From Paraburkholderia agricolaris (GTDB taxonomy: Bacteria > Pseudomonadota > Gammaproteobacteria > Burkholderiales > Burkholderiaceae): a stretch of 64,000 bases of DNA. Every line of letters begins with the position of its first letter. Within the stretch, counting starts at the first letter, position 1. Of the stretch, positions 26,103 through 46,350 are shown piece after piece. The notes beneath the pieces are model-generated. The model was not told the origin of the DNA and searched no databases. It saw only the letters and a program-made list of their open reading frames with translations. Location of the stretch: NCBI RefSeq assembly GCF_009455635.1, contig NZ_QPER01000002.1, positions 1,240,001 through 1,304,000 of the forward strand, in the 5' to 3' direction. The position numbers were made by a program, and so were the translations under genes.

Positions 26103-26149
26103 CGCGACGAAGCGCGAGCGAGGGCCGATGTGCTGCATACGTCACGACA

Positions 26150-37455: not shown

Positions 37456-39099
37456 ATGAATCGCTTTGAATCTTTAGGCGGGTGGGGCCGGGCGGCTGCC
37501 AGCGGTTTGCTGGTGGCGTTGCTCGCGGCCTGCTCCGTGGAACCCACGTATAAGCGGCCGGAGGTGGATACGCCGGTTGCGTTCAAGGAAGCGCCGGTTG
37601 CTGCTTCGGGTGCGTCCGCTACATCGGCTACATCGGCTACTTCGGCTACGTCAGCCGCATCGCCGCAGGACGCGGGCACCTGGAAACAGGCGCAGCCCGC
37701 CGACGACGCGCATCGCGGCGAATGGTGGACGATTTTCGGCGACCCGCAGCTCAACGCGCTGGAAGAGCAGGCGGCTGCCGCGAATCAGGACCTGAAGGCG
37801 GCTGCGGCCCGCGTGCAGCAGGCGCGCGCGGTGACCCAGGCGGCGAAATCGGACTGGTTCCCGAAGCTCGACGCGGGCTTCGGCCCAACGCGTGAACGGG
37901 CATCGGCAGCCTCGCAATTCCAGCCGGATAGCGCGGGTGGCACGAACGGCACGATCTGGCGCGCCCAGGTGGGCGCGTCGTATGAGACCGATCTGTTCGG
38001 GCGGGTCGGTTCGAACGTGAACGCGTCGCGTGCCGACGAGCAGCAAACTGAAGCGCTGTTTCGCTCGGTGCAGTTGTCGTTGCAGGCCGACGTCGCGCAG
38101 AACTACTTTCAGTTGCGCGAACTCGACACGGATCAGGATCTGTACCGCCGCACCGTGGCATTGCGCGAAGACACGCTGAAACTGATCGAGCGCCGTTTCA
38201 AGGAAGGCGATATCGGCGAGCTGGATGTTTCGCGCGCTCGCAACGAACTGGCGAGTGCGCGTGCGGACGCCGTGGGCGTGGCGCGTCAGCGCGCGGCCTC
38301 CGAGCACAGTCTGGCGATTCTGCTAGGCAAGCCGCCGGCAGATTTCTCGTTCGCGGAAGCGCCGCTCGTGCCTGTGACGGCGCGCGTGCCGCCAGGATTG
38401 CCTTCGGCACTGCTCGAACGTCGGCCGGATATTTCGGCGGCGGAGCGGGCGATGATGGCGGCGAATGCGCGGGTTGGTCTGGCGAAATCGGCGTTCTTCC
38501 CGAAGCTCGATATTACGGGTGGGGCTGGCTTTGAATCGGCGACGCTGGGCGATCTGTTCATGTGGTCGAGCCGCGCGTTCATTCTCGGGCCGTTCGCCGG
38601 TACCGCGCTGACGCTGCCTTTGTTCGACGGCGGCCGCCGCAAGGCAAACCTGGCGCAAGCGCGTTCGAAGTACGACGAGGATGTCGCGCAATATCGTCAG
38701 CAGGTGCTGGTGGCGTTCCGTGAGGTCGAGGACAATCTGGCCGATCTGCGTTTGCTCGACGATCAGATGCGCGAGCAGAACAATGCGGTGGTGGCCTCGC
38801 AGCGTGCGGCGCATCTGTCGCGCACGCAGTACACGGAAGGCGCGGTCAGCTATCTGGATGTGATTGACGGCGAGCGGCAGGTGCTGCTTACGCAACTGCA
38901 GGCGAGTCATTTGTCGGGTACGCAGGCAGTGGCGACCGTCAATCTGATTCGCGCGCTAGGCGGTGGCTGGGGCGATGCGAAGCCGGCGGACGATACGGCG
39001 GTGGGCGCGGTTGCGCCGGCCTCGGGTGCGATTGCCGCATCGAGCAGCTCTGTTGCTGCTTCTGCCTCAGCGCCGGTGGATCAGGTGGCGAAGCGTTAG
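37456..39099 (+). CDS. opcM: Outer-membrane efflux lipoprotein, NodT family
   Basis: 547 residues, TolC-like outer-membrane channel: lipobox LLVALLAACSVEP (acylated Cys ~24), two OEP repeats, and the family motif LERRPDISAAERAMMAANARVGLAKSA in the second. A Ser/Ala/Thr repeat region (SATSATSATSATSAAS, residues ~53-68) encoded by tandem 9-bp-like repeats lies just after the mature N-terminus; the C-terminus has another Ala/Ser-rich tail. Both are candidates for length variation. Operon end; strong terminator at 39130. Confidence 0.93.
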   Translation: MNRFESLGGWGRAAASGLLVALLAACSVEPTYKRPEVDTPVAFKEAPVAASGASATSATSATSATSAASPQDAGTWKQAQPADDAHRGEWWTIFGDPQLNALEEQAAAANQDLKAAAARVQQARAVTQAAKSDWFPKLDAGFGPTRERASAASQFQPDSAGGTNGTIWRAQVGASYETDLFGRVGSNVNASRADEQQTEALFRSVQLSLQADVAQNYFQLRELDTDQDLYRRTVALREDTLKLIERRFKEGDIGELDVSRARNELASARADAVGVARQRAASEHSLAILLGKPPADFSFAEAPLVPVTARVPPGLPSALLERRPDISAAERAMMAANARVGLAKSAFFPKLDITGGAGFESATLGDLFMWSSRAFILGPFAGTALTLPLFDGGRRKANLAQARSKYDEDVAQYRQQVLVAFREVEDNLADLRLLDDQMREQNNAVVASQRAAHLSRTQYTEGAVSYLDVIDGERQVLLTQLQASHLSGTQAVATVNLIRALGGGWGDAKPADDTAVGAVAPASGAIAASSSSVAASASAPVDQVAKR

Positions 39100-39129
39100 G
39101 GTTGGCTTCCGGTTTGCTGGTCGATGAGG

Positions 39130-39175
39130 AACGCCGGGTTGCGCTTGCCAAAGCGCGGCCCGGCGTTTTTTTTTT
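39130..39175 (+). terminator. Rho-independent terminator of the efflux operon
   Basis: AACGCCGGG (39130-39138) / CCCGGCGTT (39159-39167) with an inner GCGCTT/AAGCGC stem, followed by ten T residues. Confidence 0.93.
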
Positions 39176-39255
39176 GCTTATGGAGTGTGTCGATGCACGC
39201 GCGGGGTGCGCCGCTCCAAATCATTTTTCCCGCTTTCCTTCCCAAAATCCGTTCG

Positions 39256-39284
39256 TAGACCGCCGGTTTTCCGCCGTCTATCAT
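39256..39284 (+). promoter_or_regulatory. Sigma-70-type promoter candidate of the organosulfur operon leader
   Basis: TAGACC (39256-39261), 17-bp spacer, TATCAT (39279-39284). This predicts a transcript start near 39291, about 20 nt before the Cys-rich leader frame. It scores 4/6 and 5/6 against the consensus by eye. Confidence 0.5.
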
Positions 39285-39311
39285 GATTCGCACCTCATCT
39301 GGAGAGAGGCG

Positions 39312-39344
39312 ATGACCTGTCCGACCTGCCACTGTCCGCGCTGA
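39312..39344 (+). CDS. Cys-rich 10-residue leader peptide (putative attenuation uORF)
   Basis: ATG followed by nine codons and TGA; product MTCPTCHCPR, three Cys in ten residues. GGAG lies 7 nt before the ATG. It sits 156 nt upstream of the first gene of an operon for importing and oxidising organosulfur compounds, and just after a plausible promoter. Ribosome pausing at the Cys codons when Cys-tRNA is scarce is the natural model, as for known Cys-codon leader peptides of sulfur genes. The mRNA after it can form a hairpin at 39371-39390. No classic U-run terminator is visible, so control could be Rho-dependent or translational. Confidence 0.6.
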   Translation: MTCPTCHCPR

Positions 39345-39500
39345 TCCGCTCGCGCGCTCTATTGCCGTTGCGCGCCGGTTAAACCGCGCGTTGCAGATTT
39401 CCGTTATCCGTTTGCCTGACCGATTCCGGCACGCCTGCCCGCGTGCTGTGGGATCGGCTCGTCCCGAAACACGCCACGCCGCAACCCTAAAGAGCTCACC
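39345..39500 (+). promoter_or_regulatory. Untranslated leader between Cys peptide and metQ-like gene
   Basis: 156 nt without another gene. CGCGCCGGT / ACCGCGCG (39371-39390, one bulged C) forms a hairpin, and an upstream CGCGCGC stretch (39351-39357) could pair with the same bases, giving two exclusive folds. The ribosome site of the metQ-like gene (AAAGAG) is weak. Confidence 0.4.
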
Positions 39501-40349
39501 ATGCCCATTTCTCTCTCCGCCGTGCAGCGTTTTTTCCGCGCGCCCGCGCTGACGCTGATCGGTGTATTCAGTGTATTCGGCGTCGCGCTGGCCTTGTTTG
39601 CCGCGCCGGCTTCCGCGGCAGATACCCCGACACTGAAAATCGGCATCGCCACCAGCCCGCAAATCGAAGCGCTCAAAGTGGCCGCGCGCGAAGCGAAGGA
39701 GCAGGGGCTGGACGTGAAGATCATCGAGTTCACCGACTGGAATACGCCGAACGCGGCACTCGCCAACAAGGATATCGACGTCAACTATTTCCAGCACATC
39801 CCGTTTCTCGAGAACGCAAAGAAGCAGGGCGGCTATAACTTCGTAGCGATTGCGCCAGGCACGATCATGAAGATCGGTCTGTACTCGAAGAAGATCAAAA
39901 GCTTCGATCAACTGAAGGACGGTGCCACCGTCGCCATTGCCAACGATCCGGTCAACGGCGGCCGCGGTCTGTTGCTGCTGCAACGCGCCGGTCTTATCAA
40001 ACTGACGCCGGGCATCGACTATCGCGCTACGACGCTTAACATCATCGACAACCCGAAGCACCTGAAAATCGTCCAGCTTGAAGCATCGCAGTTGGCCCGC
40101 TCGCTCGACGACGTCGATCTCGCCCAGGGCTATCCGAGCTTCATCAAGCTCGCGGGCACCACCGATCCGAATAGCGCGTTGCTGTTCGACGGCGTGGAAA
40201 ACAAGAATTATGCGATTCAGTGGGTTGTGCGCCCGGAAAGCGCAAACGATCCGCGTATCCGCAAGTTCATCTCGATCTATCAGCATTCGCCCGCGGTGCG
40301 CGCGGCGCTCGATAAAGCCTTCGGCAATCTTTACGCCGTTGCCTGGTAA
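39501..40349 (+). CDS. MetQ/NlpA-family substrate-binding protein of an organosulfur importer
   Basis: 282 residues. Signal peptide to about residue 40 (cleavage near ASAADTPT); no lipobox Cys, unlike E. coli MetQ. The NlpA domain is recognisable by KIGIATSPQIEALKVAAREAKEQG, ANKDIDVNYFQHIPFLE and AIANDPVNGGRGLLLLQ. Partners are the downstream metN- and metI-like genes, with a monooxygenase gene between. Because of the neighbours the cargo may be methionine, methionine sulfoxide, a sulfone or another organosulfur compound rather than methionine alone. Confidence 0.85.
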   Translation: MPISLSAVQRFFRAPALTLIGVFSVFGVALALFAAPASAADTPTLKIGIATSPQIEALKVAAREAKEQGLDVKIIEFTDWNTPNAALANKDIDVNYFQHIPFLENAKKQGGYNFVAIAPGTIMKIGLYSKKIKSFDQLKDGATVAIANDPVNGGRGLLLLQRAGLIKLTPGIDYRATTLNIIDNPKHLKIVQLEASQLARSLDDVDLAQGYPSFIKLAGTTDPNSALLFDGVENKNYAIQWVVRPESANDPRIRKFISIYQHSPAVRAALDKAFGNLYAVAW

Positions 40350-41852: not shown

Positions 41853-43010
41853 ATGGCTAATCTTTTCGACGTGCCGCAGTTCATTGAAGACGCACCGTCC
41901 CTCGGCTTGAATCGTGTTGCGCCCGACACCGCGCAGGACGCCGTCGTTTTCGACGATGTGGGCAAGCTGTTCGCCAACACGCGCGGTGTGTCGACCGCTG
42001 CGCTTTCGAACGTCACGCTGAAGGTAGCGCGTGGCGAGGTGTTCGGCATTATCGGCCGCAGCGGCGCAGGCAAATCGACACTGCTGCGGCTCGTCAACGG
42101 CCTGGAAAAACCGAGTTCCGGCGCGGTTCGCGTGAATGGCGTGAGTGTCGGCGAGCTCGACGAACGCGGGCTGGTCACGTTGCGCCGGCGCATCGGCATG
42201 GTGTTCCAGCATTTCAATCTGCTCTCCGCGAAAACGGTGCGCGAGAACATTGCGTTGCCGCTAAAAATCGCCGGCGCGCCGAAAGCGGCGATCGACGAAA
42301 AGGTCGATGCGTTGCTCGATCTGGTCGGGCTGTCGAGCAAGCGCGACGCTTATCCGGCGAGTTTGTCCGGTGGGCAGAAACAGCGCGTTGGAATCGCACG
42401 CGCGCTCGTGACCGATCCGGATATTCTGCTATGCGACGAAGCGACCTCCGCACTCGACCCGGAAACGACACAAGCCATTCTCGCGTTGCTGCGCGATATC
42501 AATCAGCGTCTCAAGCTGACCATCGTGCTGATCACGCACGAAATGCAGGTGATTCGCGAGGTCTGCGATACGGTGGCGGTGATCGAGCGCGGCGAAGTGG
42601 TGGAGACCGGTTCCGTGTGGCGCGTGTTTGGCGACCCGCAGCATGACGCAACGCGCGCGTTGCTGCGTACGCTGGTGCACGATCTGCCTGCGGATCTGGC
42701 CGCGCGCGTCAAACCGTTGCACGAAATTGCGCAAGCGGATGCACAGATTCTGCTGGACGTGCGTTTCACCGGCAGCGATGCAAGCGAGCCTGACCTCGGC
42801 GGATTGACTTCCGCATTGAGCCTGGCAGGAGGGCGGGTGAGCTTCGTGCACGGTGGCATCGACCGGATTCAGGGCCATGCGCAAGGACGTCTGGTGGTGT
42901 CGGCGGAAGTGCGCGCGAATGCGGGCGGCACGGTGCAAACGCAGATCGCGACCTTGCTCGAACGCGCACGCCGCTATGCCAATCATGTCGAGGTGCTCGG
43001 CTATGTCTGA
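41853..43010 (+). CDS. MetN-family ABC transporter ATPase
   Basis: 385 residues: Walker A GRSGAGKST, Q-loop MVFQHFNL, signature LSGGQKQRVGIARAL, Walker B ILLCDEATSALDP, switch His in LITHEMQV. The C-terminal ~90 residues match the NIL regulatory domain that in MetN binds methionine and inhibits transport. The start at 41853 follows GAGAGGAACGCAG. It overlaps the permease gene by 8 bp. The ~35-residue N-terminal extension before the ABC domain is unusual. Confidence 0.9.
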   Translation: MANLFDVPQFIEDAPSLGLNRVAPDTAQDAVVFDDVGKLFANTRGVSTAALSNVTLKVARGEVFGIIGRSGAGKSTLLRLVNGLEKPSSGAVRVNGVSVGELDERGLVTLRRRIGMVFQHFNLLSAKTVRENIALPLKIAGAPKAAIDEKVDALLDLVGLSSKRDAYPASLSGGQKQRVGIARALVTDPDILLCDEATSALDPETTQAILALLRDINQRLKLTIVLITHEMQVIREVCDTVAVIERGEVVETGSVWRVFGDPQHDATRALLRTLVHDLPADLAARVKPLHEIAQADAQILLDVRFTGSDASEPDLGGLTSALSLAGGRVSFVHGGIDRIQGHAQGRLVVSAEVRANAGGTVQTQIATLLERARRYANHVEVLGYV

Positions 43011-43659
43011 TCTCTGGCTCTCCGAGCTCGCCGATGCGATCCGCGACACCATCGTCATGGTCGGCGTATCTGCCTTCATCGCGGCACTGGTCGGCATTCC
43101 GCTCGCCCTGGTGCTGGTCACCACGACGCGAGGCGGGATCTTTGAAAAACGCGTGGTGAACAGCACGCTTGGCGCGCTCGTCAATGCGTTTCGCTCCACG
43201 CCGTTTATCATTTTGCTGGTTGCGCTGCTGCCGCTCACGCGTTTGCTGATCGGCACGACGATCGGCGTATGGGCCGCGATTGTGCCGCTCAGTATCGCGG
43301 CGATTCCATTTTTTGCACGTGTGGCCGAAGTGAGCCTGCGTGAAGTGGACCGCGGCTTGATCGAAGCCGCGCAGGCAATGGGCGCGCAGCGCCGGCATAT
43401 CATCTGGCATGTACTGCTGCCTGAGGCGCTGCCAGGCATTCTCGGCGGCTTCACGATCACGGTGGTAGCGATGATCGGCTCCTCCGCAATGGCGGGCGCG
43501 GTGGGCGCCGGCGGTCTGGGCGACCTGGCGATCCGCTACGGTTATCAGCGTTTCGATACCACGGTGATGGTGACGGTAATCGTGTTGCTGATCGTGATTG
43601 TGACCGCGGTGCAATTTCTCGGCGACCGCTTTGTGCGGCGGCTTGCGCAGCGCGCATGA
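43003..43659 (+). CDS. MetI-family ABC transporter permease
   Basis: 218 residues, five to six helices, with the EAA loop VDRGLIEAAQAMGAQRRHIIWHVLLPEALPG (residues ~118-148). The start overlaps the 3' end of the ATPase gene by 8 bp. It completes the importer formed with the MetQ- and MetN-like proteins. Confidence 0.92.
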   Translation: MSDLWLSELADAIRDTIVMVGVSAFIAALVGIPLALVLVTTTRGGIFEKRVVNSTLGALVNAFRSTPFIILLVALLPLTRLLIGTTIGVWAAIVPLSIAAIPFFARVAEVSLREVDRGLIEAAQAMGAQRRHIIWHVLLPEALPGILGGFTITVVAMIGSSAMAGAVGAGGLGDLAIRYGYQRFDTTVMVTVIVLLIVIVTAVQFLGDRFVRRLAQRA

Positions 43660-43669
43660 TGGCGGCGGC

Positions 43670-43762
43670 GTGAAGATTCTCGCGAATCCGATCGAGCCCG
43701 AGTCGGTCGCGCGGATAAGCCATGCGCTGCTCGCCAAACTTTTTCACGTGGACATTCAATGA
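43670..43762 (+). CDS. Possible 30-residue coupling ORF ahead of the DszC-like gene
   Basis: GTG-initiated frame of 30 codons filling the gap after the permease gene; its TGA overlaps the ATG of the next gene (ATGA). The next gene has no visible ribosome site, so re-initiation from this frame is plausible. The GTG itself also lacks a strong ribosome site, so the call is weak. Confidence 0.25.
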   Translation: MKILANPIEPESVARISHALLAKLFHVDIQ

Positions 43763-44961
43763 ACGAACCTCGTTATCCCGAGGCGCTGCAAAACTTGCCA
43801 ACCGACGCTGCGCCCGTGGTGCGCGATCTCGCCGGCTTGCTCAAGGCATTGCGTGCCAGTGCGGCTCAGCGCGACCGCGACGGCGGCCACGCCGCGCAGG
43901 AAAAACAATGGATCGCCGACGCAGGTCTGCTGACGCTCGCCGTGCCGCGTGAATTCGGCGGCCTCGGTGCGCGCTGGCCGGAGATCTACGAGACGATCCG
44001 GCAGATCGCGCGAGTCGACAGCGCGCTCGCGCATCTGCTGGGCTTCACGTGCCTGCAGGTGGTCAGCGTCAATGTGTGGGGCAACGCGGAACAACGTGCC
44101 CGCTACCTGAGCGGCACGGCGGAGGGGCGCTGGTGGTGGGGCAATGCGGTCAACCCGCTCGACACGCGACTCGTTGCTGGCGCAACCCGCGACGGCGGCT
44201 ATCGCCTCGACGGGCAGAAAGGATTCTGCTCGGGCACACGCGGCTCGCACATGATGACTATTTCCGCGCTCGATCCGACTACCGGCAAAGCAGTATTCGC
44301 CGTGGTGCCGACCACCCGCGAGGGCATTACCGTTCACGAAGACTGGAATCCGATCGGCCAGCGGCAAACGGATAGCGGCAGCGTCTCCTTTGAACGAGTG
44401 CAGATCGAGCCGCATGAGGTGCTGGCGCGGGCCGACACGCCATACGCGAGTCTGCGCACGCTGATCTCGCAGCAGGTGCTGACCAATCTGTTCGTCGGCA
44501 TCGCGCAGGGTGCGCTCGAAGAAGCTCGCGAGTACGTCACGCAATACGGCAAGCCGTGGATCTCTTCCGGCGTCGACCAAGCCACCGACGATCCTTACCT
44601 GATCCAACGTTTCGGCGAGATGCGTCTGCAGGCGGTAAGCGCGGAAGCGCTGGCAACGCGCGCGGCCTACGCACTCGAAGACGCATGGCAGCAGGGTCCG
44701 GCTTTGGATGCCGAAAAGCGCGCCCGCGTGGCGCTCGCCACCTCGGAGGCAAAAATCGTCGCGCATCGCGCCGCGCTCGACGTCAGCGAGAAACTGTTCG
44801 ACGCCTGTGGCGCGCGCGCCACGCACGCACCGCTCGCACTCGACCGTTTCTGGCGCAACGCCCGGGTGCATACGCTGCATGATCCGCTCGACTACCGCGT
44901 GCGCGACGTCGGCCGCTACGCATTGAGCGGGACATTGCCGGAGGTTTCTTTGTACACTTGA
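43759..44961 (+). CDS. DszC/SfnB-like flavin-dependent monooxygenase (acyl-CoA dehydrogenase fold)
   Basis: 400 residues, acyl-CoA dehydrogenase fold with three domains; AVPREFGGLGARWPE and the DGQKGFCSGTRGSH segment are typical of the DszC/SfnB branch, which uses reduced flavin to oxygenate sulfur compounds instead of dehydrogenating acyl-CoA. The residue pattern around the acyl-CoA catalytic Glu is not conserved. Last gene of the organosulfur operon. Probable partner of the DszA-like enzyme. Substrate (sulfone, sulfide or sulfonate) is not determined. Confidence 0.8.
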   Translation: MNEPRYPEALQNLPTDAAPVVRDLAGLLKALRASAAQRDRDGGHAAQEKQWIADAGLLTLAVPREFGGLGARWPEIYETIRQIARVDSALAHLLGFTCLQVVSVNVWGNAEQRARYLSGTAEGRWWWGNAVNPLDTRLVAGATRDGGYRLDGQKGFCSGTRGSHMMTISALDPTTGKAVFAVVPTTREGITVHEDWNPIGQRQTDSGSVSFERVQIEPHEVLARADTPYASLRTLISQQVLTNLFVGIAQGALEEAREYVTQYGKPWISSGVDQATDDPYLIQRFGEMRLQAVSAEALATRAAYALEDAWQQGPALDAEKRARVALATSEAKIVAHRAALDVSEKLFDACGARATHAPLALDRFWRNARVHTLHDPLDYRVRDVGRYALSGTLPEVSLYT

Positions 44962-45021: not shown

Positions 45022-46350
45022 TTGCAGTTCAAATTACCGACTACCGCCACGGCGCCGTTTTGCCCATCTGAAGTACAAGGCACGGTTGCCGTTTCGCAAG
45101 GCGCGCCGTTCTGGAAAAAAATCCTGCAATTCGCCGGCCCCGGTCTGCTGATTTCGATCGGCTACATGGACCCGGGCAACTGGGCCACGGATATCGAAGC
45201 GGGTTCGCGCTACGGTTACAGCCTGCTGTTCGTCGTGATGCTGTCGAGTCTTGCGGCGATGGCGCTGCAATGCCTGAGCATGCGTCTGGGCATCGCTACC
45301 GGGCGCGACCTCGCGGAGTTGTCGAGGCTGCGCTATTCGCCGGGTGCCGCACGTTGTCAGTGGCTGCTCGCGGAACTCTCGATCGTGGCCTGCGATCTGG
45401 CCGAAGTGCTCGGCGGCGCGTTGGCCTTTCACTTGCTCTTCAAATGCTCGCTGACCACCGGCGTGTTGCTGACCGCCTTCGACACGCTGATCGTGCTCGG
45501 CCTGAAGGGCAAGAATTTTCGTGACCTCGAAGCGATCATGCTCGGCTTGATCGCGACGATCGGCGTGGGCTACATCATCGAACTGGCGCTGGTGAAGCCG
45601 CATTGGCCGTCGGTCGCGCAAGGATTGATTCCTTCGTGGCAGGCGCTCAGCAGCCGCGAGCCGATGTATCTGGCGATCGGCATTCTCGGTGCGACTGTGA
45701 TGCCGCACAACCTTTACCTGCATTCGTCGATCGTGCAGACCCGTGCGGTCAAGCGCGATCCGGCCAGCATCAGGTCGGCGATCGGCATGTCGCGCATCGA
45801 TACGATCGTCTCGCTGGTGATCGCGCTGCTGATCAACATGGCGATCCTGATTCTCGCGGCCGCTGCGTTCCACGCGACCGGCCACAATCAGGTTACCGAA
45901 ATCGAAGACGCGTACAAGCTGCTGGCGCCGATCGTCGGTACCGGCTTTGCCGCGGTATTGTTCGCGATCACGCTGCTGGCGTCGGGGCAAAGTTCGACCT
46001 TTACCGGCACGGTGGCGGGGCAGGTCATCATGGAAGGCTTCCTGAAGCTGAAAATTCCATGCTGGCAACGGCGCTTCATCACGCGGGCGCTTGCCTTGAT
46101 TCCGGCGCTGATCGGCGTGCAGATGATGGGCAACGGCGCTGTGGGCAAACTGCTGGTCGCAAGCCAGGTTGTGTTGAGTCTGCAACTGCCGTTCGCGCTT
46201 TATCCGTTGATTCGCATGACCAACGATCGTTCTCTGATGGGCGAATTCGCCAACAGACTGCCGACGCGGCTGCTCGCCTGGTCGCTGTTCGTGGTGATCA
46301 GCGCGGCGAACCTGTGGCTGGTGGTGCAGACGGTCGGTCTGGTGGACTGA
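45022..46350 (+). CDS. mntH: Nramp-family divalent metal transporter
   Basis: 442 residues with about eleven helices. The helix-1 metal motif is MDPGNWATDIEAG and the helix-6 motif MPHNLYLHSS, so the Asp and Met/His ligands for Mn2+/Fe2+ are present. The frame has no ATG before this point; TTG at 45022 is the best start, and no upstream in-frame ATG precedes the stop at 44983. Regulation is not obvious in the 60-bp gap. Terminated by a strong hairpin at 46415. Confidence 0.9.
   Translation: MQFKLPTTATAPFCPSEVQGTVAVSQGAPFWKKILQFAGPGLLISIGYMDPGNWATDIEAGSRYGYSLLFVVMLSSLAAMALQCLSMRLGIATGRDLAELSRLRYSPGAARCQWLLAELSIVACDLAEVLGGALAFHLLFKCSLTTGVLLTAFDTLIVLGLKGKNFRDLEAIMLGLIATIGVGYIIELALVKPHWPSVAQGLIPSWQALSSREPMYLAIGILGATVMPHNLYLHSSIVQTRAVKRDPASIRSAIGMSRIDTIVSLVIALLINMAILILAAAAFHATGHNQVTEIEDAYKLLAPIVGTGFAAVLFAITLLASGQSSTFTGTVAGQVIMEGFLKLKIPCWQRRFITRALALIPALIGVQMMGNGAVGKLLVASQVVLSLQLPFALYPLIRMTNDRSLMGEFANRLPTRLLAWSLFVVISAANLWLVVQTVGLVD

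Follow-up and report, generated by a model that had tools for sequence, protein, structure and literature searches.

What is the role of a ten-codon reading frame with three cysteines that lies ahead of an operon for a Met-type importer and two flavin-dependent oxygenases in Paraburkholderia agricolaris? To judge from its sequence, the leader frame is real and conserved, with one invariant Cys codon. The window, that is, the whole stretch of 64,000 nucleotides that was analysed, belongs to an assembly of 8.72 Mb in 2 contigs.

Architecture of the Locus

The leader frame MTCPTCHCPR occupies positions 39312 to 39344 of the forward strand (ATG ACC TGT CCG ACC TGC CAC TGT CCG CGC TGA), with the start ATG at 39312-39314 and the stop TGA at 39342-39344. 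It is preceded by the ribosome site GGAGAGAGG (39301-39309, forward strand), which was graded strong, has its GGAG ending 7 nt 5′ of the ATG, and is identical in 25/25 ten-codon leaders. From the leader stop to the metQ ATG (39501) there are 156 nt. A previous sequence-only reading of the window had described the frame, the GGAG, and the distance to the first gene in these terms, and the description was accurate. It had also placed a plausible promoter 20 nt ahead of the leader; for the predicted promoter TAGACC-17 nt-TATCAT (39256-39284, forward strand, 9/12 matches), the probable transcription start is at about 39291, some 20 nt 5′ of the ATG. Its elements are located at 39256-39261 and 39279-39284, inside a conserved block TTCGTAGACC...CTATSAT, and the leader ATG is 27 nt past the −10 box. 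One promoter-like site was found upstream of the leader versus a mean of 0.1 in shuffles. It was also possible to see a conserved block 5′ of the promoter (39220-39260, and the same place in L008-L021), CAAATCNTTTTTC...TTTCCTT...AATC, which in other species is an ATCGC...GCGAT inverted repeat and is perhaps a LysR-type activator site.

Dinucleotide shuffling of 39290-39500 was carried out 20,000 times. An ATG frame of 5-12 codons with at least three Cys, preceded by GGAG, GAGG, or AGGA, was obtained in 0/20,000 shuffles, while at least three Cys at 5-25 codons arose 5 times and at least two Cys at 5-12 codons arose 7 times. Known Rfam families gave 0 matches at the gathering score in the whole window, and in 39000-39700 the matches were all sub-threshold.

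The first structural gene, metQ (39501-40349), encodes a MetQ/NlpA-type substrate-binding protein and has the weak ribosome site AAAGAG. It is followed, always on the forward strand, by genes for an NtaA/DmoA-family FMN monooxygenase (TIGR03860; 40433-41839), a MetN-type ATPase (41853-43010), a MetI-type permease (listed frame 42853-43659, the true start being probably near 43003), and an SfnB/DszC-type flavin oxygenase (43759-44961). Family assignments and solved relatives agree with the operon proposed earlier, with a Met-type importer and two flavin monooxygenase-family genes. Considering that the solved relatives of the first enzyme are long-chain alkane monooxygenase 3b9n (538 bits) and dimethyl-sulfide monooxygenase 6ak1 (517.5 bits), and that of the second, SfnB/DszC-type enzyme is methanesulfinate monooxygenase 6u76, a sulfur substrate is likely, though not settled. 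The gene order metQ-(LLM)-metN-metI-sfnB is widely kept across loci. No match to the LLM gene was found in its place at the leader loci L038, L046, L067, L071, L072, L077, L078, and L096, and therefore it is the importer that the leader seems to accompany. A signal-peptide-like sequence ending ASA-AD begins the MetQ-type protein (39501-39630), which, unlike lipoprotein MetQ, has no evident lipobox Cys. An MntH-type gene (45022-46350) lies 60 nt past the operon; it is probably outside it, because it is on the opposite strand in L066, L068, L078, and L096.

Distribution of the Leader among Relatives

The metQ genes of the window and of P. fungorum LMG 16225 (L037) are 99% identical, and a close metQ relative was detected in 15/34 other genomes of the genus (81-96% identical, one partial). 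The orthologous set was formed by the best 80 of 104 metQ relatives. All 80 loci had TTCGTA[GA] within 700 nt 5′ of metQ, and 37/80 had a frame of less than 30 codons starting 59 or 60 nt past TTCGTAGAC, 28 of the Cys type and 9 beginning MG; read by eye, L066 (GTG start) and L068 keep MNRLHSRCRRSSGS further downstream. In L068, about four to five tandem repeat units stand between the TTCGTAGAC block and the leader, and the leader frame is intact. Since a homologous Cys leader is present in 30 of these best 80 loci, besides the window, the leader is old. In P. xenovorans LB400 (L046), its sequence is MTCPTFRCPR.

The other 50 of the best 80 loci keep the operon and lack the Cys leader; 9 of them carry the MG...-type frame. 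Of the 41 without any such frame, 31 belong to the Burkholderia sensu stricto branch and 8 to a P. graminis/phenoliruptrix-type clade; the remaining two are L045, where the frame is broken, and L073. Taking into account that the leader is missing in the 31 Burkholderia sensu stricto and 10 Paraburkholderia loci, it would be a lineage-specific layer of control. The MG... frames (L075, L088, L102-L104, L107, L108, L111, and L113; the clade with P. nodosa, P. mimosarum, and P. unamae) have a short 5′ region (119-156 nt), and 8/9 end HRVAPH. They lie at the same place as the leader; L104 holds one Cys and the other eight none.

In a further set of 15 loci (own included), several of them from the same genomes as the 80-locus set, the Cys leader was found in 8. 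There L013 is frame-shifted (MTCPTVHRTLM) and has lost Cys8, L019-L021 have no Cys, and L010, L012, and L014 have no leader. A match at E <= 1e-70 was obtained in 8 of 300 genomes of the order, the own one among them. Outside the genus, no short frame preceded by a ribosome site was listed upstream in the five closest relatives (L256-L260, 67-83% identical).

Conservation of the Leader Codons

The 25 ten-codon leaders, window included, were picked by length and place and not by Cys, and changes were counted by parsimony on the metQ tree (81 rows, a quick tree with 15/78 inner branches starred). Codon 8 (39333-39335, forward strand) is TGT in 25/25 with zero changes on the tree, and TGT makes up 223/1207 (18%) of the Cys codons in predicted genes. 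Codons 1 to 5 had one (ATG to GTG start), none, three, one, and six amino-acid changes, and codons 6 to 10 had five, four, none, four, and two. The stop codon changed three times, each time to another stop, and among the ten columns past it nine changed 3-8 times and one was unchanged. The Cys codons had been expected to be conserved in homologous leaders; this was confirmed for Cys8 and largely for Cys3 (22/25), and did not hold for the middle one, Cys6 (11/25). The three cysteines are thus not equal, and on these counts the leader is best described as a one-cysteine leader with C-[PRS]-R near the stop. Around Cys8 there are R7 in 21/25, P9 in 21/25, and R10 in 23/25, and leaders of other length (L064, L071, L078, L096, L066, and L068) also keep R/H-C-R-R. 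What stays constant is one Cys, next to which come Pro, Arg, or Ser and then, in most cases, Arg, together with an unaltered GGAGAGAGG.

These conserved neighbours of Cys8, together with the H/R-C-R-R kept by the other leader forms, would also be expected if the R-C-P-R or H-C-R-R end of the nascent peptide slowed the ribosome on a small molecule (cysteine, sulfide, or an organosulfur compound) and not on uncharged tRNA. We regard such an arrest as unlikely, considering that R or S can stand in place of P9 and H or C at codon 7, and that ten residues are short for a known ligand-sensing arrest peptide. It is equally conceivable in principle that translation of the frame senses no cysteine and has a constitutive role, by setting ribosome traffic, RNA stability, or polymerase coupling. 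The mimosa-clade loci, which keep a frame at the same place with no Cys in 8/9, and the several lineages that lack the leader are in favour of this; the TGT of codon 8 in 25/25 leaders is left unexplained by it, and we hold it to be improbable.

Spacer between Leader and metQ

The untranslated spacer (39345-39500, forward strand) is rich in C over G and has no terminator, and we propose it as a termination zone, possibly Rho-dependent. The distance from TTCGTAG to the metQ start was at least 200 nt in 29/31 leader loci (the exceptions being L053 with 140, where the spacer measures about 47 nt, and L096 with 170) and less than 200 nt in 49/49 loci without the leader (L115 not scored), with a 200-nt cut that was chosen after inspection of the data and a leader that alone contributes 33 nt. 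Since the long distance is seen in 29/31 leader loci and in 0/49 of the others, it is suggested that leader and long spacer work together. There were 5 leader changes on the tree, and the independent-pairs test of this link, with 2 starred pairs (p 0.5), had no power.

The previous reading had reported no U-run terminator, which agrees with our scan of 39090-39520: no intrinsic terminator was found between leader and metQ, and the four terminator-like sites were all at 39126-39217, 5′ of the promoter. Terminator and anti-terminator hairpins with a U-run, which define the classical transcription attenuator, were likewise not found in the leader region. C exceeds G in 29/29 spacers, and 13% of background windows reach the family median, so that the composition is weak evidence, compatible with Rho and not diagnostic of it.

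Folding of the 5′ region was no better than that of shuffles (z −0.54, 56/200 as good). A convincing conserved RNA structure was not found in the consensus fold, in which 9/35 pairs had some two-sided change and the covariation term was only −0.33 of −20.08. Pairing of the leader ribosome site with codons 2-4 in a hairpin was not supported: the folding of leader segments was poorer than that of mononucleotide shuffles (mean z +0.99, n=22), as expected of an open ribosome site.

These calculations bear on translation attenuation, where a ribosome waiting at Cys8 would rearrange the RNA and free the weak metQ ribosome site, as the previous reading had contemplated. The weakness of that site speaks for it, and the cysteine genes of M. 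smegmatis are so controlled according to PMC13236596. A promising long-range pairing of the leader stop was seen in the consensus fold, but the pairing of the stop region with the spacer was not above shuffles (mean z −0.29, n=29). A blocked ribosome opened the metQ start by more than 0.05 in 4/29 loci and closed it in 9/29 (p 0.44), and the comparison of its effect with shuffled spacers gave p 0.15 (n=29). Taking into account also the fold of the 5′ region and the small covariation term, this route is distinctly unlikely. As modelled, the folds tell against hairpin attenuation and give release of the start site no support, and the earlier suggestion was not borne out in silico.

Search for Other Copies

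When the P. agricolaris genome was scanned with a sequence model of the leader, there was one strong match, the next best having E 0.17 (150/5387 candidates scored); the weak matches were rejected, as none had a fitting frame with a ribosome site. In 144 genomes of the genus, where filters were stricter and 41 candidates were scored per genome, the count from the listing was 52 matches at E <= 3e-5, one per genome, and they are biased towards such leaders because the model was built from them. The 29 top-scoring ones were checked in their loci (L129-L157), and 29/29 had a metQ relative and the leader. Among 20 further stretches that were read, L222, L223, L224, and L227 were leader forms at the same promoter, that of L222 containing no Cys. 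L208-L211 have an open frame in common, a single coding-like context recurs in L212 and L214-L220, and the matches in L213, L225, and L226 look like chance. L221 has the same promoter and a leader remnant without ATG, directly before a gene starting MNEPRH like the SfnB-type gene.

No comparable leader was observed in 28 sulfur-related stretches (about 398 kb) of the P. agricolaris genome. Considering this and the five closest extra-genus relatives, where none was listed, the leader thus appears to belong to this one operon. The window and the 28 stretches contain nine other short frames with Cys, all with weaker ribosome sites or starts. From the same scan, a short Cys-containing frame MCCIRHDTRRKTAPGLDACHLACP with a weak ribosome site is located at 26128 of the window (forward strand), 56 nt ahead of a predicted gene. 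That the leader is itself a chance, untranslated frame, like those nine weak ones in about 64 kb of uncovered sequence, is hardly credible in view of the 0/20,000 shuffles and of a frame kept in 31 loci.

Proposed Mechanism and Related Systems

What can be read in the sequence is the leader frame with its ribosome site, the conservation of the frame, the invariance of one Cys codon, and the tie to a long 5′ region. From the promoter at 39256-39284 a transcript would start about 20 nt 5′ of the leader, and ribosomes would load at GGAGAGAGG. With sufficient charged Cys-tRNA they would read through codon 8 and come off at the TGA, so that about 150 nt of C-rich untranslated RNA would lie exposed; many transcripts would end there, most likely via Rho. 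When Cys-tRNA is short, the ribosome would wait with the codon-8 TGT in its A site, covering the start of the termination zone, and more polymerases would continue into metQ and into the genes of the importer and the oxygenases, through which organic sulfur would be brought in. We infer leader translation, stalling, the cysteine response, and the intervention of Rho.

That the leader is a cysteine-codon attenuator, sensing cysteine through its own translation, is the explanation that we favour, as slightly more likely than not. Against it stand the single invariant Cys, fewer than in most known attenuators, the absence of the leader from 50/80 operon-keeping loci, the lack of a comparable one in the 28 sulfur-related stretches, the loss of Cys8 in L013, and the Cys-free form in L222. 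Within the attenuator reading we give Rho an even chance, action on metQ translation a much smaller one, and other routes the rest. The earlier interpretation stands as regards a conserved coding unit with Cys8 invariant and no intrinsic terminator behind it, and found no support in silico as regards the metQ ribosome site. We put forward only tentatively, and with more doubt than belief, the complete proposal, in which Rho termination in a simple, unstructured spacer would be controlled by a single rare Cys codon located three codons from the stop, an organosulfur scavenging operon would open when charged Cys-tRNA is scarce, and the Cys leader would be retained or lost along with its spacer.

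Like this leader, tnaC is short and is followed by a long untranslated spacer without an intrinsic terminator; it stalls at its stop on free tryptophan, whereas the signal proposed here would be an uncharged tRNA at a sense codon. In PMC1262725, tnaC of E. coli is named as a precedent of Rho-dependent attenuation, and Rho is already suggested for the cysteine uORFs of Actinobacteria. Rho-gated attenuation is our first choice, loosely held, by elimination and by analogy with those terminator-less cysteine leaders (PMC1262725).

The cysteine uORFs of Actinobacteria (Seliverstov 2005, PMC1262725; Shell 2015, PMC4633059; Canestrari 2020 through papers that cite it) resemble the leader in having a short frame, one or more Cys codons near the stop, sulfur genes next to it, and no conserved terminator. 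In these uORFs Cys codons stand in runs, and the mycobacterial members are leaderless (PMC1262725, PMC4633059). Here, in contrast, there are a single invariant Cys, a ribosome site, a betaproteobacterial host, and an organosulfur importer operon: the cysteines, at codons 3, 6, and 8, are non-adjacent with only codon 8 invariant, and GGAGAGAGG and about 20 nt, counted from the predicted start, precede the ATG. Sulfur or cysteine genes downstream are common to both, represented here by the importer and oxygenase operon with its putative substrate.

By comparison with uORFC-8-2 ahead of cysS in Rhodobacterales, as described in PMC8632094, the leader is also proteobacterial, with a conserved Cys codon and a proposed stall at low Cys-tRNA; the two tandem Cys codons, two stems, intrinsic terminator, and cysS of that system were not found here. 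In PMC8079986, metL ahead of metNIQ in Streptomyces lividans ends RCMCRRMCAF and is likewise a Cys-containing leader of a Met-type importer without a clear terminator, but has 29 codons, is leaderless, and is methionine-dependent according to its authors. No betaproteobacterial cysteine leader was recognised in our literature search, outside which most subscription papers lie, and we do not claim that none is in print.

Biological Significance

The natural losses of the leader and the shortened spacers in close species are comparison pairs for asking if a single codon suffices and if the unstructured spacer acts as the switch. Activators of the LysR type, among them CysB and Cbl, are usually regarded as the regulators of sulfur scavenging in Proteobacteria. 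With a conserved cysteine-codon leader ahead of an organosulfur importer, direct sensing of charged Cys-tRNA would join them. On the sequence evidence, a cysteine attenuator of the organosulfur operon is plausible, with the cysteine uORFs of Actinobacteria and the cysS leader of Rhodobacterales as its kin; if true, it would be a cysteine attenuator of Betaproteobacteria that lacks both a run of Cys codons and a terminator hairpin.
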